Notes under the pieces: generated by a model | The model's database searches: none | Seen by the model: only the letters and a program-made list of their open reading frames with translations | What the model was told of the DNA's origin: nothing | Assembly: GCA_011389735.1 (NCBI GenBank) | Contig: JAABTS010000048.1 | Coordinates: 1-36,082 of the forward strand | DNA length: 36,082 nucleotides | Source: Desulfobacteraceae bacterium | Lineage (GTDB): Bacteria; Desulfobacterota; Desulfobacteria; Desulfobacterales; JAABTS01 | Reading direction: 5' to 3' | Translations under genes and position numbers: made by a program | In this document: positions 811-21,295 of the stretch, in pieces | How the letters are laid out: each line of letters opens with the position of its first letter | Numbering within the stretch: position 1 is the stretch's first letter

Positions 811-3800
811 TTAATCCGTTTTGGGTCGTTGTTCCGGACAAATCCGCCTGCGCAATTGATCCCACCGTTCATCGTCCGGCAGATCCGTATCGACTGCGTC
901 CCATACGGTCTCAATCCGGTCCAGGATATCATCAATTGTGATATCGTTTTCATTTTGAGCGCACAGTTCCATGATTTCATTGACTCGTTCAATGATCACC
1001 GCCGCAACCTCCCGGCTGCCTTTCCCGAACAGCAGGGAAATGTCGCACAGGGCGATCATCCGGTCGTTCCAGTAAATATCGTTTCGAGGCGCGCCGTCAT
1101 TGAATCTGCCCACCAGTTTTAAGTATCTCGGCGTATAGCGATGGTGGAGGGTGGATTCTTTTCCAAGGGCCGTCAATACGACAGGCAATTGATCGGATAG
1201 GGGCGTCCCGTGATCCCAACTGATATAGATCAGATCCACATAATAGAGCCATGTGTTTCCGTTATTGATCAAGGGGAATGCCAGCAGCGTTTCTTGGGAA
1301 ACAGTTTCGCATATATCGGGAATATGAGAATTCAAAATGATCGACGCTTTGCCTATGGGATCTGTCCATCGGCCGGCCTGGGGCTGCGATTCGACCGCCA
1401 GAGTACCTTCGGCCATATCCGCGTCCGTACAAATCAAATAGTAAGGAAGGTGCGGTGAATAAAGCCGGGTCATTTCAAAATTTTCCAGGATGGTTTCGAA
1501 ATGAGCGATATCGTTTTCGAATTCCGCCAGTTCTTCCTTTTCCCAAATTTCTTTGATCCGATACCTCACGGAACCCTTGATTGTTTTCAGGACAGGGGCC
1601 AGTGCTTTCAAAGGGTCTATCAGATAAGGGCTCAACTGATCGATTGTTATGGCGTGCCTTAGCAGCAGCTTTCCCACCACGCCGAAGGATTCGGTGAACA
1701 AGGTTGCTTTGTCGACCGGTGAAAATGAACAGTTCCGTATTCTGGATGCGCTTGCGGCCATGGCCATGCCGATGGGATTGATAGCAAAAGGAAGCAGGAA
1801 TTCGGAAACCGAAACATTTTTTTCACCGTCTTCGAGGGAAGGGATTGAAATTAGATGGCTGACAGGATGTCCGTGAAATCCTTTTTGGTTTCGATGAAAC
1901 ATTTCCTGGGTCAGGAGTATGATCCTCGCATATCGGCAACCGTAGGAACTCAGTTCATCCAGGGCCTGGTTCAGATTCCGGAACCTGGTCGCGTTCAGGA
2001 TTATCAAGTTATCCTTTTTCTGATCATAATCCTCCGATAAAACAGGGAGATACCATTGGCCTTCGGCGAAAAAAGGAGATACCAATTGATCTGTAATAAT
2101 TTTAGTGGTGCGGTGCAAAATGGTGTCGATTTTTTCACCGCCCAGATACAGCCTTTCCCATTCTTCAACCCTTTCCTCTCCGTATCTTGAAACCATCCGA
2201 TTTCTTTGTTCCAACCGGATATATTTCGATTCTACACTGTCGTCCACCGTGACTATGGGACCATGAGCGCTTTCCCCGAAATAATGGTGTTCCTGGTTCA
2301 TGGATGCAGTCCGGTCAAAGGTGTTTTTCCAGGCAAGACCGCATCCTCCGGATGAGGATATAAAAAAAGCCGTTCTATAGCCTTTGTTGTCATCGATCGT
2401 TTGATGGATTTGACGCCTCAGGCCGTCGTTGTTCAAAATCATATCCACCAAACAATGAGCCAGGGTGAAATGCCGTTTGAGTGAGTGGGCTTTTTGAGGG
2501 GCGAATTTTTCAAGGCCGGCAATGAGTACATACGAACAGACGGCGTACAGCAATTCGAACCGGACATGTTGAAATTCATCATTGAGAGCGATATAACCGG
2601 CCGTTTGTTCGTAACCGGTTTTGTCTTCATCGATTGCAGGGCCGATCCGGAGTATGGGGCCCGCAATTTGTTTTTCCATGATTCCAGGATTCAGCACATT
2701 GGGTTCGACCGACGAAATAACAATGGAAAAGGTGTTTTCGGACAGAAAAAACCGGTCGTTCACCATATCCGCTGTCCGAATTCCGCATTCCAGAAAATGT
2801 TTCCATGTGTCCGTCACTGTTTTGGCCGCCGCTTCAGCCGTTTGATCCTGTGGAATCAGTAAAATGGATCGGTCCGAATCCATCCATTCAGACAGCATTG
2901 AAAAGAGTCCGTCGGGTTCCGTGTTTAATGACGATAATCGTCCGAGCGGATACGGATCTGAAAATGTTTTAGATAGTTTTGTAAGTTCTTGATAATAGGC
3001 ACTTTCATAGGGATACTCCGCGGTTTTTTCCCAGACGCTGATCTTCGAGTCCGGCGATGCGGATTCTTGAGCGGGCGTAAACGTCCCGTATTGATCCATC
3101 AAAAAGCGCCACTCTCGTTCAGCGGAGGGGTATTGCCGGGTCCGGCTTCTGGAAATAGTGACGGATTTGGCCCGGTTTCTGGGAAATTCATCCGGTTGCC
3201 GGCCGTGCGCCACGCCGAAACGGTATGCAAACTGGTAATAAAAAATCAGATCCGCGAAGGGCTGGCAGTAATCGGCCAGTTTGGGCGCAGCCAAACAGTT
3301 TCCGCCGCATAAGTATTTCATGTCTTCGAGCATTGAATGTTCATAAGTCACGACGGCGAACTCGATATTCGACAGATGAAGACGTTTCATGAGGTTCAAC
3401 GCATCGGACAACCGGGCCTCATGAGTCGCGTTGACAATCACTTGATTGCCGTTATATCCGTGCGGGGGCGCATAATCATACAAATCCCGGTAGTCGAACA
3501 CCTTACCGATCACCACCCATGTGTTTTCTTCGACTTTGTATGAAGCTTCGAGAGCTGTGCCGGCGGGATCTAGCGCGTCAAAAATCACACAGGAATCTTT
3601 CAAGGGAATGGAATACAACAACCTGTCAATGAATGCATGCAATTTTGAGTCCGCCAACATTGACGCCGTCGTTGTTTTAACCTCCTGGATCTGTTCGATG
3701 AACTCCCGGTCTTGGTCGGTGTTTCCGCGTTTTTTGGAAATCCACAGAGCCAGAAGATGCAGGCACATCATCATGCAAAAAGGGCTTTTCACCGCAGACA

Positions 3801-6234
3801 CCGTCACTTCCTCTCCGCTGCCCGTCCATATCAGCCCTCCGCTTCTCTGAGCGATCAGGGCCATATCCGCAAACAGCTTTTCGGTGACTCCGATCATGGC
3901 CACATTATGCTGGTGGAGAGCTTTGGCCAGCTCGATCATATCCGCTGTGGTCGATGACCAGCTCATCAACACCACCAGATCCGTATCCGGTATAAACCAG
4001 GAGGAAACATTTTCGATTTCGATCGGCTGGACGACAACGATTTCCACATCGGGCGCAAGCAAACCAAACGCCTGCCGGGCCATAATCCCTACGTGGTAGG
4101 CGCTGCCCATTCCCGCGATCACAATTCGTTTCAGGCTCCCCAGGCGGTCGCCGAACCGGCGTTGGAAAAAATTTTCGTTGAGTTCAAAGGCGGGGGTCGC
4201 GGAGTCGCCCGGCAAATAACGGCTCAGTACCGAATCCAGCCGGTCGGGGATCTCATGAAGATGGGTTTCGAAAAAGGATCTGAACAGATCTTTGCGAATC
4301 CAGAGCGGAACCAGCACCGTGGAAAACCGTTTGATATCCGGCAGGGAATTTTCATTGAAATCCATCAGCGTTATTTTGCGTTTCAATCGGCCGTCTTCCC
4401 ATTCCGTTTGAATACGCGCGAATATTTCTTCACCTTCTAGCGGAATGACATGGACCCGAAACACCGCGTCAAGGAATTCCTGTTCTTCCTTTTCCTGCTC
4501 TTTTTTACAGGCGTCGATTTTTTTTCGATCAGTTTCCGTTTCTTTCAAGCGTTTTAAATTTTCTGAATGCCTGTTTCTCAAGGCGTTCAGCTCCAATGTT
4601 TTTTGATGCACCAGATTCTGGGGAAACAGCCCCATTGCGGCGTTAATATCGGAAACCAGCATGATATCGTCCGTATCCGGCCGGCGCACGATAAATGCCG
4701 GCCGGTTGTGGCTTGCCACATAAAGGCATCTCGATGAATATACGCTCATTCCGATGGCCGCAATTTGACCGCCTTTTTGCGCCATACGCCGGACAGCTTC
4801 GCGAAACGCCAGTTCATCCAATTGTTGAAGGTTCTTATGCTTGATGTTCCGGTATACATTGTAATCGACCGTCTGGCTGCCGATGCCGTAATCCGACAAA
4901 TCCGATTCGATCTGTTCCTGAATAGCGTCATAGCGCTGTTTTTCTCGGCTGATATGATTGAAATAATACCCCCAGAGAAATGCAAAATATTCGGACGAAT
5001 TATCGCTTCTAAGTTCAAGGCCTTCTATTTGTACGATAAACTCCTTGACTGCGGCTTCGATTTCAGGATCGAACTGGCCGTTTATACAAATTACGCGATC
5101 CCCCTGGGCGTCCAAAAAGGGATGGGCGTTCCTGGCGGTGACCGCGGACTGCATCGCCCATCGGCCGTGAGATACAACCGGCTGGGCGAAAAAATTCAGG
5201 GAAAGCGGATCTGTATGTCCGAAATTGACCTGGGCGTGTATTTCAGGGGGAAGCCCGATTTTTTGCAAATATGCAAGCGCGGCGGCGGCGGCCCATCCAT
5301 ATACATTGGCGCCTTTTTCCGCCCAGTACAGGGTTCGCCAGTCAATATCGGACAACATGCGGGATTTCGGCCACAGGATTTCCAATTCCCGTTGAATTTC
5401 TTTCAACAATTCGGGTCTTGATCGGATCGATGAAATTAAAGCCGCATCCAGAAAACGGAACGTGCATTTTACGGCGTCCCGGTCATAATCCGGAGGAATT
5501 CGGACCGGAGTGTCTTTCATATAACGCCACAGGTATTTCATGATGTACGGGTTTTTTTGTTCTTCGCCGTACTCTGATCGAATGGGCCTCGGTAATTTTT
5601 CTTGCAAAAAGATGCTTTCGAAAACCCGGTCGAACGTATTCAAAATATCATCCATTTTGAGTTCCGAAGGCTCGGCTTTAAAACGCTCTTCAATTTGTTC
5701 CCGGAGCGACTTTCGAATAAGAGACTGGATCACGACGTATGACAAATCGTACCGGACCGTCAGATCGTGAATGATTCGTTTCATATCGTTCGGCGATCTG
5801 ATAAAAACAGGCGGCAGGCCGCCGGAGCGGCCGGGGTGTCCGGCGGACAGGCTTGATTCGTCGGATGAATCGAACAACTGGTCAAAAGACAGATAATCGC
5901 TCTTACCGGAAATCAATTCGTCATAAGTGTCCGTGGAAAGCTCCTCAAATTGCAGCAGTCTCAATTGATGCGACACATCATTGTAATCTGTTCCCGAATG
6001 CCATAGCGACATCAGTTTTTCCGGCCGGTTCGGATATGCTGAAAATTCCCTCAGGTATTCGCTCAATTTAATGACCGATCCCACGGTTTTGCATGTGCGG
6101 ATCGGTTCCAGATCGTCCCCGAAGATTCCGATCCCGGTACTGTCCGGGGCCCGGTAAATTATAGCCGACATGGCGGACAAGAGCCGTGTCAGGCTGTTGC
6201 CGGCGCTTCCGAAGTAAGCGATGATTCCGCACAT
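811..6234 (-). CDS. giant GlmS-like protein: class II glutamine amidotransferase plus SIS (sugar isomerase) modules, 1807 aa
   Basis: The N-terminus MCGIIAYFG puts the Ntn nucleophile cysteine directly after the initiator Met, which fixes the start. The amidotransferase fold is split. Residues 2-45 carry the nucleophile loop, about 280 unrecognised residues follow, and the domain resumes at 356-411 with HGRW, NAHP, NGQFD (oxyanion-hole Asn-Gly) and SDNSSEYFA. A charged, probably helical linker lies near 550-590. SIS 1 spans about 700-835 (GMGSAYHVG, SWSSTTADM, GSGEEVTVSAVKSPF). SIS 2 spans about 855-1031 and ends in PRNRAKSVTIS, the C-terminal signature of GlmS. A normal GlmS, about 600 residues, would stop there. 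This protein continues for some 780 residues, including a second SIS-like stretch near 1286-1330 (GESAHGPIV, like GELKHGPLA of GlmS). It is probably a glutamine-dependent sugar-phosphate aminotransferase-like enzyme, but the substrate is unknown and it may not replace housekeeping GlmS. It lies downstream of a Nudix gene and a small unknown gene. Confidence 0.85.
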   Translation of the reverse strand: MCGIIAYFGSAGNSLTRLLSAMSAIIYRAPDSTGIGIFGDDLEPIRTCKTVGSVIKLSEYLREFSAYPNRPEKLMSLWHSGTDYNDVSHQLRLLQFEELSTDTYDELISGKSDYLSFDQLFDSSDESSLSAGHPGRSGGLPPVFIRSPNDMKRIIHDLTVRYDLSYVVIQSLIRKSLREQIEERFKAEPSELKMDDILNTFDRVFESIFLQEKLPRPIRSEYGEEQKNPYIMKYLWRYMKDTPVRIPPDYDRDAVKCTFRFLDAALISSIRSRPELLKEIQRELEILWPKSRMLSDIDWRTLYWAEKGANVYGWAAAAALAYLQKIGLPPEIHAQVNFGHTDPLSLNFFAQPVVSHGRWAMQSAVTARNAHPFLDAQGDRVICINGQFDPEIEAAVKEFIVQIEGLELRSDNSSEYFAFLWGYYFNHISREKQRYDAIQEQIESDLSDYGIGSQTVDYNVYRNIKHKNLQQLDELAFREAVRRMAQKGGQIAAIGMSVYSSRCLYVASHNRPAFIVRRPDTDDIMLVSDINAAMGLFPQNLVHQKTLELNALRNRHSENLKRLKETETDRKKIDACKKEQEKEEQEFLDAVFRVHVIPLEGEEIFARIQTEWEDGRLKRKITLMDFNENSLPDIKRFSTVLVPLWIRKDLFRSFFETHLHEIPDRLDSVLSRYLPGDSATPAFELNENFFQRRFGDRLGSLKRIVIAGMGSAYHVGIMARQAFGLLAPDVEIVVVQPIEIENVSSWFIPDTDLVVLMSWSSTTADMIELAKALHQHNVAMIGVTEKLFADMALIAQRSGGLIWTGSGEEVTVSAVKSPFCMMMCLHLLALWISKKRGNTDQDREFIEQIQEVKTTTASMLADSKLHAFIDRLLYSIPLKDSCVIFDALDPAGTALEASYKVEENTWVVIGKVFDYRDLYDYAPPHGYNGNQVIVNATHEARLSDALNLMKRLHLSNIEFAVVTYEHSMLEDMKYLCGGNCLAAPKLADYCQPFADLIFYYQFAYRFGVAHGRQPDEFPRNRAKSVTISRSRTRQYPSAEREWRFLMDQYGTFTPAQESASPDSKISVWEKTAEYPYESAYYQELTKLSKTFSDPYPLGRLSSLNTEPDGLFSMLSEWMDSDRSILLIPQDQTAEAAAKTVTDTWKHFLECGIRTADMVNDRFFLSENTFSIVISSVEPNVLNPGIMEKQIAGPILRIGPAIDEDKTGYEQTAGYIALNDEFQHVRFELLYAVCSYVLIAGLEKFAPQKAHSLKRHFTLAHCLVDMILNNDGLRRQIHQTIDDNKGYRTAFFISSSGGCGLAWKNTFDRTASMNQEHHYFGESAHGPIVTVDDSVESKYIRLEQRNRMVSRYGEERVEEWERLYLGGEKIDTILHRTTKIITDQLVSPFFAEGQWYLPVLSEDYDQKKDNLIILNATRFRNLNQALDELSSYGCRYARIILLTQEMFHRNQKGFHGHPVSHLISIPSLEDGEKNVSVSEFLLPFAINPIGMAMAASASRIRNCSFSPVDKATLFTESFGVVGKLLLRHAITIDQLSPYLIDPLKALAPVLKTIKGSVRYRIKEIWEKEELAEFENDIAHFETILENFEMTRLYSPHLPYYLICTDADMAEGTLAVESQPQAGRWTDPIGKASIILNSHIPDICETVSQETLLAFPLINNGNTWLYYVDLIYISWDHGTPLSDQLPVVLTALGKESTLHHRYTPRYLKLVGRFNDGAPRNDIYWNDRMIALCDISLLFGKGSREVAAVIIERVNEIMELCAQNENDITIDDILDRIETVWDAVDTDLPDDERWDQLRRRICPEQRPKTD

Positions 6235-10419: not shown

Positions 10420-11949
10420 TTGCTCGCCAAAGTCAACAGCAGTGCAGTGATAGGCATCGACGCCTTTCTTGTGGAAGTGGAGGTGGATATTACGCCCGGA
10501 CTTCCGTTTTTCGCAACCGTTGGATTGCCTGAAGCCGCGGTCAAGGAAAGCAAGGAAAGAGTGAGGACTGCGATCAATAATTCCGGCTACGATTTTCCCG
10601 ATGACAGAATTACGGTCAATCTGGCGCCGGCGCACATCAAAAAGGAGGGCACCGGATTTGATCTGCCGATGGCTCTGGGGATTCTGGGAGCCACCGGACT
10701 TATCGCTCCCCAAAGCCTTGAAAGGTACATGATTTTAGGGGAACTTTCTCTGGATGGCGGAATCAGACCCGTCAACGGCTCTCTCCCCATGGCGATAGCC
10801 GCCAAACAATATAATTTTGAAGGAATTATCGTACCGGCCGAAAACGGAGCCGAGGCCTCCGTGGTCCAGGATGTTCCGGTGTTCCCGATGAAAAATCTGC
10901 CCGAAGTGGTCGATTTTTTTCTTGGTTTTAACGACGTCGAGCCTCTAAAAACCGATATCGATTCAATCTTTAATGAAAGAGACGCTTATGAGGTCGATTT
11001 TTCGGAAGTCGCCGGCCAGGAACATGTTAAACGGGCGCTGGAAATCGCGGCGGCGGGCGGTCATAACCTGCTTATGATCGGCCCTCCCGGTTCCGGAAAA
11101 ACCATGCTGTCGCGCCGAATTCCATCCATACTCCCGCCGTTCACCTTTGCGGAAGCGATTGAAACCACCAAAATTTTCAGTGTGGTCGGGATGCTTGAAA
11201 AAGATCGCGCCTTGATTACGCGCAGACCTTTCCGGGCGCCTCACCATACCATATCGGACGCAGGTTTGATCGGCGGAGGCCAGGTTCCGAGGCCCGGAGA
11301 AGTCAGCCTCGCCCACAACGGCGTCCTGTTTCTGGACGAGCTGCCCGAATTTAAAAAGCATGTTCTCGAAGTCCTCCGGCAGCCCCTTGAAGATCTTAGA
11401 GTAACCATTTCACGGGCCACATCGACAATCACCTATCCGTCCAGTTTCATGCTGGTTTCCGCCATGAATCCTTGCCCATGCGGATATTACGGCGATTCCA
11501 CGCATAAATGCACATGCAGCCCACAGCAAATCAAAAAATACCGGTCAAAAATATCCGGCCCTCTTCTGGACCGAATCGATCTCCATGTGGAAGTCCCGGC
11601 GGTTTCATACAAGGATTTACTGGGCAAGATTGAATCCGAGACTTCCGAATCCATTCGAAGCCGCATTACCGCCGCCCGCGAAATTCAATCCCAACGGTTC
11701 AAAAAATCAAAAAACTTCTGTAACGCCCAGATGAGCAGCCGGCAAATCAAACAGCATTGCGCGGTCAGCGAGGCGTCGAACCGTCTCTTAGAAACAGCGG
11801 TCGACAAACTGGGGCTTTCAGCCCGAGCCTACAATCGGGTTTTGAAAATCGCCCGCACCATCGCTGACCTGAGCGGCGAAAAAAATATGGATATTCAACA
11901 CCTTTCCGAAGCAATCCAGTACCGGACGCTTGACAGAAGCAGCTTTTGA
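10420..11949 (+). CDS. YifB/ComM-family Mg-chelatase-like AAA+ ATPase
   Basis: The family includes ComM, a helicase-like hexamer that aids branch migration during transformation in some bacteria; its role elsewhere is less clear. The N-terminal ChlI-like Lon-fold domain (about 1-170) includes [20 protein letters not shown] and [17 protein letters not shown]. The AAA+ domain follows, with Walker A GPPGSGKT (221-228), Walker [10 protein letters not shown], and the zinc-finger-like [18 protein letters not shown] typical of YifB. The C-terminal [20 protein letters not shown] motif completes the family pattern at 509 residues, full length. The start is TTG at 10420, supported by AAGGAGG eight bases upstream. 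Confidence 0.93.
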
Positions 11950-12039
11950 CAATGAATCGTTGGGCCGCCAAAAAGCCGGACCGAAAATTATATGCAGACC
12001 GGTCTTAACTTCAGGCCGGCCGGATGGAATTGAAACAAT

Positions 12040-12161
12040 GATTTTTCGGCATCCTTCATAAACCCAGGAAAGTGGTTTACACTTTCCAAGTCGGGATCTG
12101 GATCCCGATAGCAATCCCGATTTCAAAGTGTAAACTGACAGATGAAGGATGCCGATTTTTC
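12040..12161 (+). mobile_element. family B MITE-like element with perfect 8-bp target duplication (copy B1)
   Basis: The element itself is 12048-12153 (106 bp), with terminal inverted repeats GGCATCCTTCAT and ATGAAGGATGCC. An inner inverted pair is TTTACACTTT and AAAGTGTAAA, and the centre holds GGGATC-type short repeats. It is flanked by the identical octamer GATTTTTC at 12040-12047 and 12154-12161, which I read as a target-site duplication. No transposase is encoded. It is the only structure I see in the 466-bp gap between the yifB-type gene and the LUD gene, and could double as a hairpin terminator. Confidence 0.85.
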
Positions 12162-12415: not shown

Positions 12416-13069
12416 ATGGACAACGCCATCGAAAATTATTGGAAGCACAGACTTGAGAATCTAAAATCGACATTGGAAGGCAACAATTTTGACGCTTTTG
12501 TGGCGAACGATACTGCGGCGGCGTATCGGATCGTAATGGAAGAGATCCTGCCGAAGCTGGACATAAAGACCATTTCCTGGGGAGGTTCGGTCACCTTTGT
12601 GCAAACCGGTGCTTACAAACAGCTTGCAACGGAAAACAAATACACTGTAATCGACACCTATGATAAATCCCTTTCTCCGGAAGCATCGCTCGAACGCCGC
12701 CGCGAGAGCCTTTTGGCGGATCTTTTCATCACCGGAACCAATGCGGTCACCGAAGACGGATGGCTGGTCAACCTTGACATGATCGGAAATCGCGTGGCAG
12801 GGATTACATTCGGCCCAAAAAACGTGATTATTATGATGGGGCGGAACAAGATCGTCCCGGGCCTGGATGACGCCATGGTGCGTATTAAAAATTATGCCGC
12901 TCCGGTCAACACTATGCGGTTGGACAAAAAAACACCTTGCGCCAAGACCGGATTCTGTGAGGACTGCAAAAGCCCCGACCGTATCTGCAATTCCTGGACA
13001 ATCACTGAAAAATCGTTTCCCAAAGGCCGGATTAAAGTCGTGCTGATCAACGCTGATCTGGGATTTTAA
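12416..13069 (+). CDS. LUD-domain (LutC/DUF162-like) protein with C-terminal cysteine motif
   Basis: LUD proteins include LutB/LutC of lactate oxidation, but stand-alone members like this one (217 aa) have no settled function. The LUD core is seen in FDAFVANDTAAAYRIV, SWGGSVTF, DLFITGTNAVTEDGWLVN and RNKIVPGLDDAMVRIKNYAAP. A C-terminal cluster, Cys175-x5-Cys181-x2-Cys184-x6-Cys191 (CAKTGFCEDCKSPDRIC), could bind metal or an iron-sulfur cluster. The start ATG is well supported by GGAGGGACAATC just upstream. No lutA or lutB gene is adjacent: the neighbours are a yifB-type gene and the nickel transporter operon, so it is probably monocistronic. Confidence 0.87.
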   Translation: MDNAIENYWKHRLENLKSTLEGNNFDAFVANDTAAAYRIVMEEILPKLDIKTISWGGSVTFVQTGAYKQLATENKYTVIDTYDKSLSPEASLERRRESLLADLFITGTNAVTEDGWLVNLDMIGNRVAGITFGPKNVIIMMGRNKIVPGLDDAMVRIKNYAAPVNTMRLDKKTPCAKTGFCEDCKSPDRICNSWTITEKSFPKGRIKVVLINADLGF

Positions 13070-13156
13070 GAAATTTTAGCGCAAAAAGAATCAAGAGGAC
13101 TTCAAAGCCGGTGTTTTTTAGGGTTTGACTTTATCTTTTCCGGGCCGTGATGCTTT

Positions 13157-13227
13157 CGCCGCAAAGACGCAATGGACGCGAACCGTTTGATTTCTTTGGT
13201 CTTTGTGAGCTTTGCGTCTTTGCGGTG
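13157..13227. repeat. long hairpin with CGCAAAGACGCAA arms
   Basis: CCGCAAAGACGCAA (13159-13172) is perfectly complementary to TTGCGTCTTTGCGG (13212-13225); with adjacent G-U pairing the stem extends a few bases. The loop is 39 bases. It lies about 90 bp after the LUD gene with no T-run, so it is a dispersed palindrome rather than an obvious terminator. A family A arm fragment (TTTTCCGGAAATTGAATAT) follows at 13264-13282. Confidence 0.7.
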
Positions 13228-13305
13228 AGTATGTTCAACCGGCGGTCGCGGCCAAAGTTAAAGTTTTCCGGAAATTGAATATCAGGGAGCAGATAATCTC
13301 TAATT

Positions 13306-13468
13306 TTAAATTATATGCTTGAAAAGAATAAATGTTTGTGCTAATCCAGCCTTCATAACGCAGGTACGAAACCTGTCCGGAATTCAGCATAAAATTTAAT
13401 TATCCGATTTTTAACCGCAAATAATAATGGCGTTATGGAAACGTCCTACATTCTTGCGGTTTTTTTTT
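13306..13468 (+). promoter_or_regulatory. riboswitch-like leader with terminator upstream of nikK
   Basis: TTAAATTATATGCT (13306-13319) pairs with AGCATAAAATTTAA (13386-13399) with one mismatch, closing a 66-base domain. Inside is a small hairpin, CAGGT-ACGAA-ACCTG (13361-13375). Downstream, AACCGCAA (13413-13420) pairs with TTGCGGTT (13454-13461) and runs straight into seven further Ts, an intrinsic-terminator shape ending 20 bases before the nikK start. CATAACGC (13354-13361) in the upper domain can also pair with GCGTTATG (13430-13437) in the terminator loop, which offers a switching partner. I do not recognise a cobalamin or NiCo riboswitch consensus. Its position suggests metal-dependent attenuation of the transporter operon. 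Confidence 0.5.
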
Positions 13469-13488
13469 ATGTTTTCACGGAGGTTTCA

Positions 13489-14277
13489 ATGAAAAGTCTT
13501 TTTTTTGCACTGTGTTCGCTGCTTCTTGTTCAGTTTTGTACGACGCCTTCAACCCAGGCGCATTTTGGAATGGTGATTCCGTCGGATTCAATGGTTATGC
13601 AAGATGATCCCAGGACCATTCAATTGACTCTGTCTTTTTCCCATCCTTTTGAGATGGTCGGCATGGATCTCGAAAAGCCCAAGGTGTTCGATGTGATGGC
13701 CAACCAAAAGATTGAATCCCTGCTTGGCGCGTTAAGCCAGACCAAAGTCATGGATCATGCGGCCTTTACGGCTGGTTATAAAATTCGAAGGCCCGGTGTT
13801 TACATGTTTTACATGGAGCCCAAGCCTTATTGGGAGCCTGTGGAGGACTGTTTCATTGTTCATTACACCAAAACCGTGGTTACGGCTTTTGGCGATGATG
13901 AAGGGTGGGATGAGGAAATCGGGCTTAAAACCGAAATCGTTCCTCTTTCGAAACCTTATGGCCTGTACGCCGGCAACGTGTTTCAAGGGGTGGTGAAAAT
14001 GAACGGAAAGGCCGTACCTTTCGCGGAAGTTGAAGTGGAATACCATAATGAACAAAAAATATACACGGCTCCCGCTGATTATATGATCACTCAAACGGTC
14101 AAGGCGGATGAAAACGGAGTGTTTACATATGCGACTCCCGGTCCGGGATGGTGGGGGTTCGCCGCTTTGAATGAAGCTGATTTTAAAATCAAGCATGAGG
14201 GCGAGGACAAAGCGGTCGAAATCGGCGCCGTTATCTGGGTAAAATTTCATGAATGGCGGCCGGCGGATGACAAATAG
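13489..14277 (+). CDS. nikK: NikK-like periplasmic component of an ECF nickel transporter (DUF4198 type)
   Basis: Predicted periplasmic accessory of the nickel ECF transporter. A signal peptide ([20 protein letters not shown]...) ends at TQA, giving a mature N-terminus that begins with His (HFGMVIPSD), typical of this family and a plausible metal ligand. The remainder is beta-rich with a second Ig-like segment ([24 protein letters not shown]). ATG at 13489 is chosen because GGAGG lies five bases before it. An in-frame ATG at 13435 sits in the loop of the leader terminator, has no good ribosome-binding site and would bury the signal peptide. First gene of nikKMLQO, 30 bp before nikM. Related DUF4198 proteins serve other metals, so nickel is inferred from the whole operon. 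Confidence 0.82.
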
Positions 14278-14307: not shown

Positions 14308-14913
14308 ATGCATATATCCGAAGGCGTATTGTCAGGCCCGGTTCTGTTGTCCGGCGGCGCGTTGGCTGCGGCGGGAACCGCCATTGGGCTTAAAAAGATC
14401 GATTATGACAGGATTGCTCAGGTCGGAGTCCTTTCAGCCGCTTTTTTTGTAGGATCGCTTATTCATGTGAATATCGGGCCGTCAAGCGTACATTTGATTT
14501 TAAACGGTATGGTCGGCCTTCTTCTGGGATGGGGAGCCGCGCCTGCAATCCTGATCGCTCTGGTGCTGCAATCTTTATTGTTTCAATACGGCGGGATCAC
14601 CGTACTCGGCGTCAACACCGTTATCATGGCGCTTCCCGCTGTAATCTGTTATTACGTGTGCGGCCCTCTGATTCGGAAGAAAACATCGATCGCCGCAGTT
14701 GGGGCGTTTGCCGGCGGTTTTTTGTCTGTTTTTTTATCCGCCGTATTGATGGCGGCTGCATTGTTTTTCACGGAAAAAAATTTCTGGGGGGTGGCGGCGG
14801 CGGTGATAATGGCTCATTTGCCGGTCATGGCGATAGAAGGCGTTATATCGGTTTTTTGCATTTCGTTTCTTAAAAAAGTGCATCCCGCTATTCTGCCGAA
14901 TTATTCAGGCTGA
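14308..14913 (+). CDS. nikM: NikM/CbiM, substrate-specific membrane component of the nickel/cobalt ECF transporter
   Basis: Integral membrane S-component that binds the metal ion. The N-terminus MHISEGVLSG is the NikM/CbiM hallmark, in which the amino group and His2 help coordinate the metal, so the start at 14308 is certain. The conserved segment GPSSVHLILNGMVGLLLGW contains further ligand candidates. Six or seven hydrophobic helices fit in 201 residues. The CbiN partner of cobalt systems is absent, and NikK and NikL flank it instead, which favours nickel over cobalt by analogy with described Nik systems. A 348-bp repeat-containing gap separates it from nikL. Confidence 0.92.
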   Translation: MHISEGVLSGPVLLSGGALAAAGTAIGLKKIDYDRIAQVGVLSAAFFVGSLIHVNIGPSSVHLILNGMVGLLLGWGAAPAILIALVLQSLLFQYGGITVLGVNTVIMALPAVICYYVCGPLIRKKTSIAAVGAFAGGFLSVFLSAVLMAAALFFTEKNFWGVAAAVIMAHLPVMAIEGVISVFCISFLKKVHPAILPNYSG

Positions 14914-14970: not shown

Positions 14971-15114
14971 GGCATCCTTCATAAACCCAGGAAAATGGTT
15001 GACACTTTCCAAGTCGGGATCGGGATCGCTATCGGGATCGAAACAATTCGCTCTCGATAGCGATAGCGATAGCGATCCCGATTTCAAAGTGTAAACTGAC
15101 AGATGAAGGATGCC
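14971..15114 (+). mobile_element. family B MITE-like element (copy B2) inside the nik operon
   Basis: Same ends as B1 (GGCATCCTTCAT and ATGAAGGATGCC) and the same inner TTGACACTTTCC / AAAGTGTAAACTGACAG arms, but an expanded core of GATCGG and CGATAG hexamers makes it 144 bp. The flanking octamers (AAGTAAAT and GAAAAAAA) do not match, so its target duplication has decayed or never existed. It sits between nikM and nikL. An ATG in its right end opens a frame into nikL, which I consider accidental. Confidence 0.8.
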
Positions 15115-15261: not shown

Positions 15262-15930
15262 ATGGTTACTGTTGTGAATAATCAAATATTCTCTAAAATT
15301 GCGCCATCCATCGTTCTTTTGTTCATCGCGGCGGCTCCCGCTTTGGCCCATAGAGCCACTGTATTTGCATGGGTGGAAGGGGATACGGTGCATACTGAAA
15401 GCAAGTTCAGCGGTGGAAAATACGCGAAAAACGCTCCAATCGAAGTTTTTGACGATCAAGGCCTCAAACTTCTTGAAGGCCGAACCAATCAAAAAGGTGA
15501 ATTTTCATTTACACCGCCTCGACAGTGTGCGCTTAAAATCGTGTTAAACGCCGGAATGGGCCATAAGGGAAGCTGGACTATTTCCGCCGATGAATTTGGC
15601 GCTGTAGACGCCGATGTTCATGAATCGCCTGAAATAAAGGAATCAACCGACATAGTAGACGAAAAAAAGATGGAGCGGGAATCATTTGAAACGGACAGCG
15701 GCGTATCTGATCCATCAAGTTTAAAAGCAGCCGAACTCGAACGAATTATTGAAAGAGCCCTGGATAAAAAGCTGCAACCGGTCGTCGCCAAAATCAACAA
15801 GTCGATGGAACCGGATTCCCGCCCTTCAATTTCTGATATTTTGGGAGGAATCGGCTATATTTTCGGCCTGGCGGGCGTCGGCGCCTATGTGAACTATAGA
15901 AAAAAAATAAACGGAAAGCCTTCATCATGA
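15262..15930 (+). CDS. nikL: NikL-like membrane-anchored component of the nickel ECF transporter
   Basis: Accessory protein of Nik-type ECF transporters. A signal peptide (SIVLLFIAAAPALA) leaves a mature N-terminus AHRATVFAWVEG. A carboxypeptidase-regulatory/Ig-like fold follows (IEVFDDQGLKLLEGRTNQKGEFSF), then an acidic helical linker and a single C-terminal transmembrane helix (ISDILGGIGYIFGLAGVGAY) with basic residues after it. ATG at 15262 follows GAAAAGGATTA and begins a proper signal peptide. The longer frame from 15103 starts in repeat B2 and would add 53 unrelated residues. The stop overlaps nikQ by four bases (ATGA at 15927). Confidence 0.82.
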   Translation: MVTVVNNQIFSKIAPSIVLLFIAAAPALAHRATVFAWVEGDTVHTESKFSGGKYAKNAPIEVFDDQGLKLLEGRTNQKGEFSFTPPRQCALKIVLNAGMGHKGSWTISADEFGAVDADVHESPEIKESTDIVDEKKMERESFETDSGVSDPSSLKAAELERIIERALDKKLQPVVAKINKSMEPDSRPSISDILGGIGYIFGLAGVGAYVNYRKKINGKPSS

Positions 15931-16682
15931 TTCAGGAAACGTTCGCGATCGGCGATTCAATTATCCATCGGCTGGATCCGAGAGTAAGGGTTGTTTTTGC
16001 GACTCTTTTTTCTTTTCTGGTAGCGCTTTCGGACAGATTTCCAACATTATACGCCGCTTTCGGGATATCCGTTTTGATGATTATTCCGGCCCGACTGGAT
16101 ATTCGGGAGGCGGGGAAACGGCTGAAAACGTTGTTCTGGTTCATGCTGCTTATCTGGATGGTTTTGCCTCTGACGTTCGAGGGAGATACGATCTACCGAC
16201 TGGGCGTCTTCGCCGTCAAGCGGCAGGGGCTGGTTCTGTGCGCTCAAATAACGTTGAAAGCGGTTTCTATCCTGTTGATTTTTATGGCGCTGCTTTCCAC
16301 GATGAATATCAACACGCTGGGGCATACGCTGAACCGGCTTTCCGTTCCGGGAAAGCTCGTTCACCTTTTTCTGATAACCTACCGGTATATCTTTGTGATC
16401 GAAGAAGAATACCGCCGTTTGAGAACAGCGATCAAAATCCGCGGTTTTAAATCCGGAACCAACCTCCATTCTTATAAAACCCATGCTTATTTGCTTGGCA
16501 TGCTGTTTGTGCGTGCGTCGATCCGGGCGGAACGGGTACACGAGGCCATGCTGTGCAGGGGGTTCCACGGCAGGTTTTATTCGCTTGACGGTTATAAGCC
16601 CTCCCGGAAAAACAGGAATTTTTCAATAATAATGACTGCTGCGATCGCCTGCCTTACCTTTATCGAGTATTATCCCATATGA
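15927..16682 (+). CDS. nikQ: NikQ/CbiQ, transmembrane T-component of the ECF transporter
   Basis: The scaffold membrane protein (EcfT role) that couples the ATPase to the S-component. It has 251 residues and about five hydrophobic helices. The N-terminal signature is HRLDPRVRVVFATLFSF and the coupling motif is IRAERVHEAMLCRGFHGRF, an AxxxA-type helix that contacts the ATPase. It begins inside nikL's stop and ends inside nikO's start (both ATGA overlaps), so nikL, nikQ and nikO are translationally coupled. CbiQ of cobalt systems is a close relative; the nickel assignment rests on NikK and NikL nearby. Confidence 0.9.
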   Translation: MIQETFAIGDSIIHRLDPRVRVVFATLFSFLVALSDRFPTLYAAFGISVLMIIPARLDIREAGKRLKTLFWFMLLIWMVLPLTFEGDTIYRLGVFAVKRQGLVLCAQITLKAVSILLIFMALLSTMNINTLGHTLNRLSVPGKLVHLFLITYRYIFVIEEEYRRLRTAIKIRGFKSGTNLHSYKTHAYLLGMLFVRASIRAERVHEAMLCRGFHGRFYSLDGYKPSRKNRNFSIIMTAAIACLTFIEYYPI

Positions 16683-17416
16683 ACAAGCCGGCGCCGGACA
16701 GAATTCCGCTTATCCGTTTATCCGGGGTATCTTACCGGTATCCCGGCGCGGATACGAATGTAATTGATAACCTTGATTTTCAACTGTATCCGGGGGACCG
16801 TACCGGTGTCATGGCGCCTAACGGGAGCGGTAAAACCACATTGTTTTATTTGCTTATGGGCCTTTTAAAGCCATCGGATGGTCTAATCGAAATTTTCGGC
16901 AAACCTGCTGAAACCGAAAAAGATTTTGAGCAAATCCGACGCCGGATAGGCCTTCTTTTCCAGGATGCGGACGATCAGCTTTTTTCTCCAACCGTGCTTG
17001 AAGATGTGGCTTTCGGCCCTTTGAATCTGGGCAAAAACCAGGAAGAAGCCAGGGACATCGCCATGAAAACACTCAATGAACTAGGGCTGGACGGGTACGA
17101 GAACAAGATCACGTTTAAACTTTCAGGCGGGGAAAAACGTTTGGTGTCGCTTGCAACCGTTCTTGCCATGGAACCCGATGTGCTGCTTCTCGATGAACCC
17201 AGCACCGGCCTGGATGAAAAAACCAAGGCGAGGCTCGTCAACGTGCTTTTAAACCTCGATCTTTCATATATTCTGATCTCCCATGAGACCAGTTTTCTGT
17301 ACGATCTTACAGATTCGGTGTACACCATGCGCCAGGGTAAGATGAAGCGGGCGGAAAAAATTCATGTCCACCCGCATGTTCATCCTCACACGTCCCATAT
17401 CCGCCATCATCATTAG
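16679..17416 (+). CDS. nikO: NikO/CbiO, ATPase of the ECF transporter, with histidine-rich tail
   Basis: Cytoplasmic ABC ATPase that powers nickel uptake. Walker A is APNGSGKTT (46-54), the Q-loop is FQDADDQL, the signature is LSGGEKRLVSLA (148-159), Walker B plus catalytic Glu is LLLDEPSTGLD, and the switch His is in SHETSF. The first glycine of the P-loop is alanine, a mild departure from GxxGxGKT. The last 18 residues are strongly histidine-rich (HVHPHVHPHTSHIRHHH), consistent with metal binding or sensing at the cytoplasmic face, although this role is inferred. It is the last gene of the operon. The ATG overlaps the nikQ stop, and the stop at 17416 lies 6 bases from the convergent small coiled-coil gene. 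Confidence 0.93.
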   Translation: MNKPAPDRIPLIRLSGVSYRYPGADTNVIDNLDFQLYPGDRTGVMAPNGSGKTTLFYLLMGLLKPSDGLIEIFGKPAETEKDFEQIRRRIGLLFQDADDQLFSPTVLEDVAFGPLNLGKNQEEARDIAMKTLNELGLDGYENKITFKLSGGEKRLVSLATVLAMEPDVLLLDEPSTGLDEKTKARLVNVLLNLDLSYILISHETSFLYDLTDSVYTMRQGKMKRAEKIHVHPHVHPHTSHIRHHH

Positions 17417-20964: not shown

Positions 20965-20990
20965 AACATTCAACACCCAACATTCAACAT
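20965..20990 (-). repeat. short heptamer tract joined to a half family A element
   Basis: AACATTCAACACCCAACATT and CAACATAA are the heptamer GTTGAAT read on the minus strand, with one GTTGGGT variant. It runs directly into the family A half element at 20994. Confidence 0.75.
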
Positions 20991-21101
20991 AATAAAATTC
21001 GTATATCCCCGGGCCGACAACGAAATGAAATTAATTATCTGAAAAGCTATATTCGTATATCCCGGGCGACAATATAATGGAATTGATTTATGGAAGATAT
21101 A
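20991..21101 (-). repeat. two tandem half-copies of family A
   Basis: The first half (20994-21050) carries ATTCGTATATCCCCGGGCCG and TTAATTATCTGAAAAGCTAT. The second (21051-21101) carries ATTCGTATATCCCGGGCGAC and GGAATTGATTTATGG. Both are core-plus-right-arm halves in the same orientation. The 70 bases 20981-21050 match the reverse complement of 34759-34828 with only two differences. Confidence 0.8.
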
Positions 21102-21185
21102 GAAATACGTCAAGCCGCCTGCAATAAGCGGTCTGTACACATAAGTTCCCAAAAGGATTTTAAATGCGGAAGTACAAAATTCGAA

Positions 21186-21295
21186 ACACGTTTGGCATCC
21201 TTCATAAACCCAGGAAAGTGGTTGACACTTTCCAAGTCGGGATCGGGATCGGGATAGCAAAGTGTAAACTGACAGATGAAGGATGCCACGCGTTT
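21186..21295 (+). mobile_element. family B MITE-like element (copy B3) with near-perfect 8-bp target duplication
   Basis: The element is 21194-21287 (94 bp, the shortest copy), with GGCATCCTTCAT and ATGAAGGATGCC ends and a core of three GGGATC-like units. The flanking octamers ACACGTTT (21186-21193) and ACGCGTTT (21288-21295) match at seven of eight positions. It ends immediately before the stop codon of the ferredoxin-domain gene. Confidence 0.82.

Follow-up and report, generated by a model that had tools for sequence, protein, structure and literature searches.

A conserved leader with paired GAA-loop hairpins as a predicted transcription attenuator of nickel/cobalt-type uptake genes in Desulfobacterota

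On comparative sequence evidence, the leader of the nikKMLQO operon in a Desulfobacteraceae bacterium is a genuine conserved transcription attenuator, with an anatomy that differs in key details from that proposed in a first-pass annotation of the same DNA. The window, by which we mean the whole stretch of 36,082 nucleotides that was analysed, is contig C396 of a 6.5 Mb genome (477 contigs, 96.9% complete), and the leader lies on its plus strand between a LUD-domain gene and nikK. The operon runs in the order nikK, nikM, nikL, nikQ, nikO on the same strand: domain matches identify a nikK-like gene (13489..14277, ATG at 13489; DUF4198, PF10670), a nikM-like gene (14308..14913; CbiM, PF01891), a nikQ-like gene (15927..16682; CbiQ) and a nikO-like gene (16679..17416; ABC ATPase), and a nikL-like gene of uncertain start (15262..15930) matches the NikL family NF058648 of NCBIfam with 178.5 bits. 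Reading towards nikK, the leader contains the hairpin P1 (13360..13376, GCAGGU-ACGAA-ACCUGU, -6.8 kcal/mol), an A/U-rich linker (13377..13412), an intrinsic terminator (13413..13468, -15.8 kcal/mol) and the ribosome-binding site of nikK (GGAGG, 13479..13483). Within the terminator, AACCGCAA (13413-13420) pairs with TTGCGGTT (13454-13461), nine T occupy 13460-13468, and folding places an apical hairpin at 13429..13445 (GGCGUU-AUGGA-AACGUC).

The inner hairpin and the T-run terminator hairpin, the latter ending 20 bases before the nikK start codon, had both been recognized in the first-pass annotation, and both are present and covary in orthologous leaders. Two further elements of that annotation fared differently. 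The sequence does contain the 14-bp stem (13306-13319 with 13386-13399, one mismatch) and the 8-base pairing across the two domains (13354-13361 with 13430-13437), but among 200 dinucleotide shuffles 10 give a Watson-Crick equivalent of the stem and 107 contain one or more 8-mers of this type. Because of these chance frequencies, and because the stem probably lies partly outside the transcript, we do not retain the P1-like closing role of the one or a functional role of the other; both look fortuitous. Folded as a whole, the leader is no more than modestly favoured over shuffled sequences (z -1.48), so that the evidence for it is comparative and not energetic.

NikK orthologues were found by a protein scan in 80 loci, almost all of which carry the label Desulfobacterales, Desulfobacteraceae or Deltaproteobacteria, and most of their leaders share one layout: a sigma-70-like promoter, P1 with a loop that ends in GAA, a linker, a terminator and a ribosome-binding site. 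Alignment A1 comprises 45 of these 80 leaders and the window; the other 35 had no recognizable element, had long linkers, were odd or truncated, or nearly duplicated aligned ones. In A1 all six P1 pairs have changed on both sides, with 94.2% of cells paired, and in the terminator helix six of nine pairs have done so, with 92.0% of cells paired. Covariation in nikK-orthologue leaders, which the first-pass annotation had named as the check on its attenuator reading, is thus found in P1 as well as in the conserved T-run hairpin. The observed values for covariation score, paired cells, covarying cells and pair types were reached by none of 500 shuffles, and the number of doubly changed pairs in the P1-P2-P3 structure by 5 of 500, in shuffles that do not correct for the relatedness of the sequences. 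RNAalifold applied to A1 predicts P1 and the terminator, and neither P2 (described below) nor the apical hairpin. The linker is poorly conserved in sequence and length, the loop-to-loop distance ranging from 44 to 92 nt across the 45 leaders (some assignments are doubtful), and no invariant core was seen in A1 outside the hairpins and terminator. Model R1, built from the 46 leaders of A1, has matches at E <= 0.01 in 63 of the 80 orthologue loci, of which 45 had served to train it. A second model, R2, was built from 36 leaders and excludes the window and every sequence of its type; this blind model recovers the window leader, including P1, as its sole match below E 1 in the window (43.0 bits, E 2.3e-7).

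The usual 5' strand of the terminator in orthologue leaders is CCACGAAGG, which can also fold alone as a second hairpin, P2, of the form RCC-ANGAA-GGY, with a loop like that of P1. The pattern YC-ANGAA-GR occurs in the terminator strand of 186 of 201 sites, so that the second hairpin overlaps the terminator in most relatives, the window copy not among them. As P2 uses the 5' strand of the terminator, the two structures exclude each other. The third pair of P2 tests this hairpin by itself, because its 3' base falls outside the terminator stem: at 140 of 149 distinct sites it is paired, while 20,000 shuffles average 119.4 and reach 131 at most; counting Watson-Crick pairs only, the figure is 111 (shuffled highest 94). 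The fourth pair reaches 78 against a shuffled highest of 75, and the fifth shows no covariation in the same 149-site test. Of the 36 sites in the non-nik set, 35 keep the third pair, and the fourth gives no signal (14 of 36; shuffled mean 14.1). In A1, 76.4% of P2 cells are paired, the outermost pair being unpaired in 26 of 45 sequences. The best P1 hairpin has a loop ending in GAA at 162 of 201 sites, under a scoring that gave GAA a bonus.

A conserved stem and U-run thus stand between promoter and gene, as in an intrinsic-terminator attenuator, the promoter side being taken from relatives. Promoter-like pairs with a score of at least 9 of 12 are present in 38 of 46 A1 and 79 of 98 A2 leaders, compared with 26.5% and 22.0% of shuffles. 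The best pair lies ahead of the element, its -10 ending 6-18 nt upstream of the model start at 38 of 46 A1 and 74 of 98 A2 sites. The homologous candidate in the window (13319..13347, plus strand) consists of TTGAAA (13319-13324) with GCTAAT (13340-13345, 15-nt spacer) or TAATCC (13342-13347, 17-nt spacer); it is weak by itself, and promoter prediction over the window listed none at 13319-13347. Another candidate further upstream, TTGAAT (13275-13280) with TCTAAT (13299-13304), scores as well or better. Given the position of the pair just upstream of P1 in most relatives, transcription probably does not cover the 5' arm of that 14-bp stem: the arm would lie outside the transcript if the homologous promoter is used, and part of it would be transcribed if the upstream one is.

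These observations bear on a rival explanation, in which the structure is an ordinary constitutive or leader-peptide attenuator, or the terminator of the upstream gene, with no dedicated sensor. A terminator alone would give polarity, and the modest z value of the window fold fits such an explanation; it is nevertheless made quite improbable by the covariation of P1 and P2, by the promoter-like pair just before P1 in most relatives, and by the recurrence of the element before functionally related genes. For a leader peptide in particular, an ATG precedes P2 in only 50 of 201 sites by a crude count.

The reading that we favour, with somewhat better than even confidence, is that of a two-hairpin transcription attenuator that is OFF by default and is antiterminated by a trans-acting factor. 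The median energies are -2.5 kcal/mol for P2 (n=186), -7.0 for P1 (n=179) and -24 for the terminator region (n=186); since the terminator is strong and P2 weak, the default state should be termination, and something must hold P2 for transcription to pass. The transcript would begin shortly before P1 and, without intervention, the strong terminator would form and RNA polymerase would halt before nikK. We infer a factor, presumably a protein, that would recognize loops ending in GAA and bind P1 together with the weak P2 (RCC-ANGAA-GGY in most copies). Keeping P2 intact would occupy the 5' strand that the terminator needs, and transcription would continue. As the regulon would serve the acquisition of nickel/cobalt-type metals, we expect the factor to be active under metal scarcity and to release the RNA when metal is abundant.

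The window itself belongs to a minority variant. Of the 15 sites without the P2 pattern, eight are of the window type: the window, L007, L012, L133, L135, L137, L146 and L187, among which L007/L187, L133/L146 and L135/L137 are near-identical pairs. The window copy has no CCACGAAGG/P2 element; the variant instead has its A(N)GAA-like loop in the terminator's apical hairpin, where the window reads AUGGA and its window-type relatives read AUGAA or AAGAA. By eye, the apical hairpin of L135 and L137 could overlap a second terminator-like hairpin, ACCGCAUG/CAUGCGGU; none such was seen in the window. In this variant, mutual exclusion of the hairpin with the ANGAA-like loop and the terminator is not evident.

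The element is widespread. R1 matches 192 of 241 class genomes at a per-genome E <= 0.1, a threshold at which about 24 chance positives are expected among 241 genomes, with up to 10 matches each. In the phylum set, 60 of 345 genomes match at E <= 0.001 under stricter filters, and 14 chosen genomes contain 2 to 13 matches each at E <= 0.5, some overlapping or antisense. Some weak matches may be false, since L308 and L019 contain a palindrome of the CCACGAAG...CTTCGTGG type that is similar to the core of the terminator. The genome of the window has two clear copies, the second of which (43.4 bits) is outside the training set and precedes a DUF3450 gene and a MotA/TolQ/ExbB gene.

Among the genes examined, those downstream of the element are mostly of the metal-uptake type. 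At the 100 top-scoring sites, the first downstream gene is NikK-like in 38 cases, CbiM/NikM in 9, of the PBP2 (periplasmic-binding) cluster in 9, of the TonB-receptor cluster in 8 and porin-like in 8; a few of these sites have no called gene, closely related species are counted separately, and families were assigned by similarity to Pfam-run members or by eye. The sample leans towards nik, because these are the top-scoring matches of a model trained on nik leaders. Other sites precede SBP_bac_5 (NikA-type), FmdE, methyltransferase, TrmO and DUF3842 genes, as well as ExbB/ExbD- and FecCD-like genes (by eye); in one island the element precedes TonB/ABC genes followed by CobN, and a few sites precede genes with no obvious metal link. 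Metal-acquisition islands in one genome (L216-L218; G083:C1 1.62-1.76 Mb) hold several divergent, low-scoring copies whose P2 loop is often AGGAA, together with TonB-receptor-, ExbB/ExbD- and FecCD-like genes (by eye) and CobN (Pfam). An example without such a link comes from another genome (G209, L219:4057-4339), in which two tandem copies precede a fumarase-/tartrate-dehydratase-like pair and a metE-like gene, the names being assigned by eye; these genes fall outside the metal-uptake theme.

Comparison with catalogued RNAs and known regulators points towards a new family. A scan of the window with Rfam 15 matched only a tRNA; the leader matched no family above its gathering threshold, and a search of it at E up to 10 gave seven weak sRNA/antisense matches, all below gathering scores. 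Twenty of the 80 orthologue loci gave no Rfam match, and a description of such an element was not found in the open-access literature. By these searches, the element is an attenuator family absent from Rfam. Nickel operons of this kind have elsewhere been placed under NikR: one study assigns NikR sites to nik operons of other delta-proteobacteria, whose transporter genes are alike (PMC545781). In the present case control would instead lie at the RNA level. No site of the form GTGTTAC-N13/14-GTAACAC occurs within 3 mismatches in window positions 13000-13500, in agreement with the first-pass annotation, which had seen no NikR consensus; the genome (96.9% complete) has no match to NikR_C (PF08753); and NikR-like sites within 3 mismatches occur in only 2 of the 80 orthologue leaders. 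NikR was rejected as the regulator on the window and genome results. The Rfam, NikR and covariation results together support that annotation in its reading of the leader as an attenuator and as new, and point to an uncatalogued regulatory RNA linked with metal uptake; the metal sensing by the RNA that it suggested is conjectural. For a large group in which no more than 7 of 241 sampled genomes have a NikR_C match, the element would offer a plausible way of controlling nickel/cobalt uptake, TonB receptors and the proteins that energize them included; it also adds a widespread RNA with a predicted two-hairpin code.

Metal riboswitches in front of transporter genes are an established kind of control, and the NiCo (czcD) riboswitch, a junction aptamer before efflux genes, resembles the present element, as do other metal riboswitches, in being an RNA leader tied to transition-metal transport. 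It is conceivable, though rather unlikely, that the element is itself a true riboswitch, in which the two loops with GAA would dock with each other and would themselves bind a metal ion or metal-related metabolite, with no protein involved. The strong conservation of the loops and the set of metal-transport genes fit such an RNA, and the protein reader discussed below is a candidate only. However, the linker varies in sequence and in its loop-to-loop length, with no invariant core; stabilization of P2 by a ligand would turn uptake ON with metal, an unexpected sign; and no known riboswitch family matches, a result compatible with a new family. The element also differs from NiCo and from other metal riboswitches in its tandem simple hairpins, its uptake genes and its lack of an Rfam match. 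Two hairpins in tandem whose loops are alike, joined by a variable linker, resemble a protein target more than an aptamer.

Among protein targets, the closest in layout are the dual-hairpin antiterminators of ANTAR proteins (NasR, AmiR, EutV). As described, these have two hairpins, the second overlapping the terminator, with hexanucleotide loops carrying A at position 1 and G at position 4 (PMC3369931). The two small like-looped hairpins, the second sharing the terminator strand in most relatives, recall this arrangement, and 140 of the 241 class genomes encode ANTAR domains. A target of the NasR/EutV kind is nonetheless very improbable here, and ANTAR proteins were rejected as the regulator: the loops (AGAA, UGAA, ANGAA and similar) are mostly of 4-5 nt and end in GAA, unlike such hexaloops, the linker is longer and variable, the genome of the window (96.9% complete) has no ANTAR (PF03861) match, and neither do 79 of the 192 motif-bearing genomes. 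Motif and domain are not associated, the motif being found in 113 of 140 genomes with ANTAR and 79 of 101 without (p 0.63). NusG-family proteins, surveyed in 117 genomes, were likewise set aside, with no association evident on inspection by eye: among genomes with the motif several have a single copy, and among those lacking it several have two. CsrA, T-box and IRE-like readings of the leader were considered on general grounds.

The leading candidate for the factor, on sequence evidence, is CooT (PF10133), a small nickel-binding protein that forms a dimer, found in 219 of 241 class genomes including that of the window (C353:2409-2588). In the 186 good-quality genomes the motif is present in 145 of 171 with CooT and 2 of 15 without (Fisher p 1.9e-8), and in all 241 genomes in 183 of 219 with and 9 of 22 without (p 2.9e-5); both tests ignore phylogeny. 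The 13 good genomes that have neither CooT nor motif fall into nine families by the labels of the tool. NikK relatives are encoded in 11 of the 15 CooT-less good genomes. Five CooT-less genomes from three families (G077, G143 and G198, of one genus; G075; G097) encode close NikK orthologues (67-71% identity) near which R1 found no match (best score 13.9 bits over 11 loci), and by eye their leaders are devoid of the element except for L312, with a relic CCACGAAGG and no T-run. Motif-preceded operons contain five CooT-like genes in four loci and DUF3842 in seven loci, all within 1.4 kb downstream, a count based on 229 listed sites, among them some repeats and a few in antisense orientation; the motif also stands before some of the DUF3842-cooT operons.

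Because of this co-occurrence, the leaderless NikK genes of CooT-less genomes and the motif-preceded DUF3842-cooT operons, we tentatively propose that apo-CooT could bind the paired GAA-loop hairpins and antiterminate metal-uptake operons, that nickel binding would release the RNA, and that CooT would be the nickel sensor of the regulon; this is possible, at clearly less than even probability. CooT and motif could also both merely follow nickel dependence. Two good CooT-less genomes carry the motif (G065, one match; G108, six matches, 95% complete), and 26 of 171 CooT-bearing good genomes do not. The 52 cooT loci examined, most of them from top-scoring CooT matches and with short flanking sequence, include a single one (L293) where the motif is matched at E below 0.01. 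Should CooT prove to be the reader, the role of a poorly understood protein would be explained as that of a metal-sensing RNA-binding antiterminator, an RNA-level counterpart of NikR across Desulfobacterota.

CooT has carried the old label 'predicted RNA-binding protein' and would have an Sm-like fold, neither of which was confirmed by our modelling. Structure prediction from the single sequence was poor (pLDDT 61.5), and a Foldseek search brought up the CooT entries 6fan, 5n76 and 6y8v, without any further convincing structure. A member of the family from this group is matched to PDB 6fan (E 4.9e-15), and the protein of the window's genome retains the cysteine, as do the other displayed CooTs, which were found with a search pattern that required it. 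The described CooT is a nickel-binding accessory protein of CO dehydrogenase, with a CO dehydrogenase link in 85 of 111 CooT-containing proteomes; the accessible text gives no regulatory or RNA-binding role, and the word RNA is absent from it (PMC6006190). The PF10133 protein encoded in some motif-preceded operons here is of the same family, whereas an RNA-binding regulatory role is the proposal of the present analysis.

Around cooT itself, the main cluster (L306:1059-4323; C353 in the genome of the window; similar in L257-L307) reads by eye as DUF3842, cooT and the start of an IspH-like gene. In the genome of the window DUF3842 is preceded by a ParB-like gene (by eye); several other genomes have in this place a gene resembling that of the NYN_YacP (RNase-like) protein in L272, which hints at RNA biology. 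The window has further features of its own. Upstream of the leader lies an intergenic palindrome, GCCGCAAAGACGCAA...TTTGCGTCTTTGCGGTG (13159-13228), and between nikM and nikL there is a long palindrome of GATAGC-type repeats. A dispersed sequence is apparently repeated at 14980-15110, 11818-12126 and 20970-21260, with two minus-strand ORFs that have in common a run like SRSRLGKC.PLSWVYEGC. On the minus strand, positions 811-6234 hold an unusually long ORF of 1807 residues that starts like a class-II glutamine amidotransferase (MCGIIAYFG).
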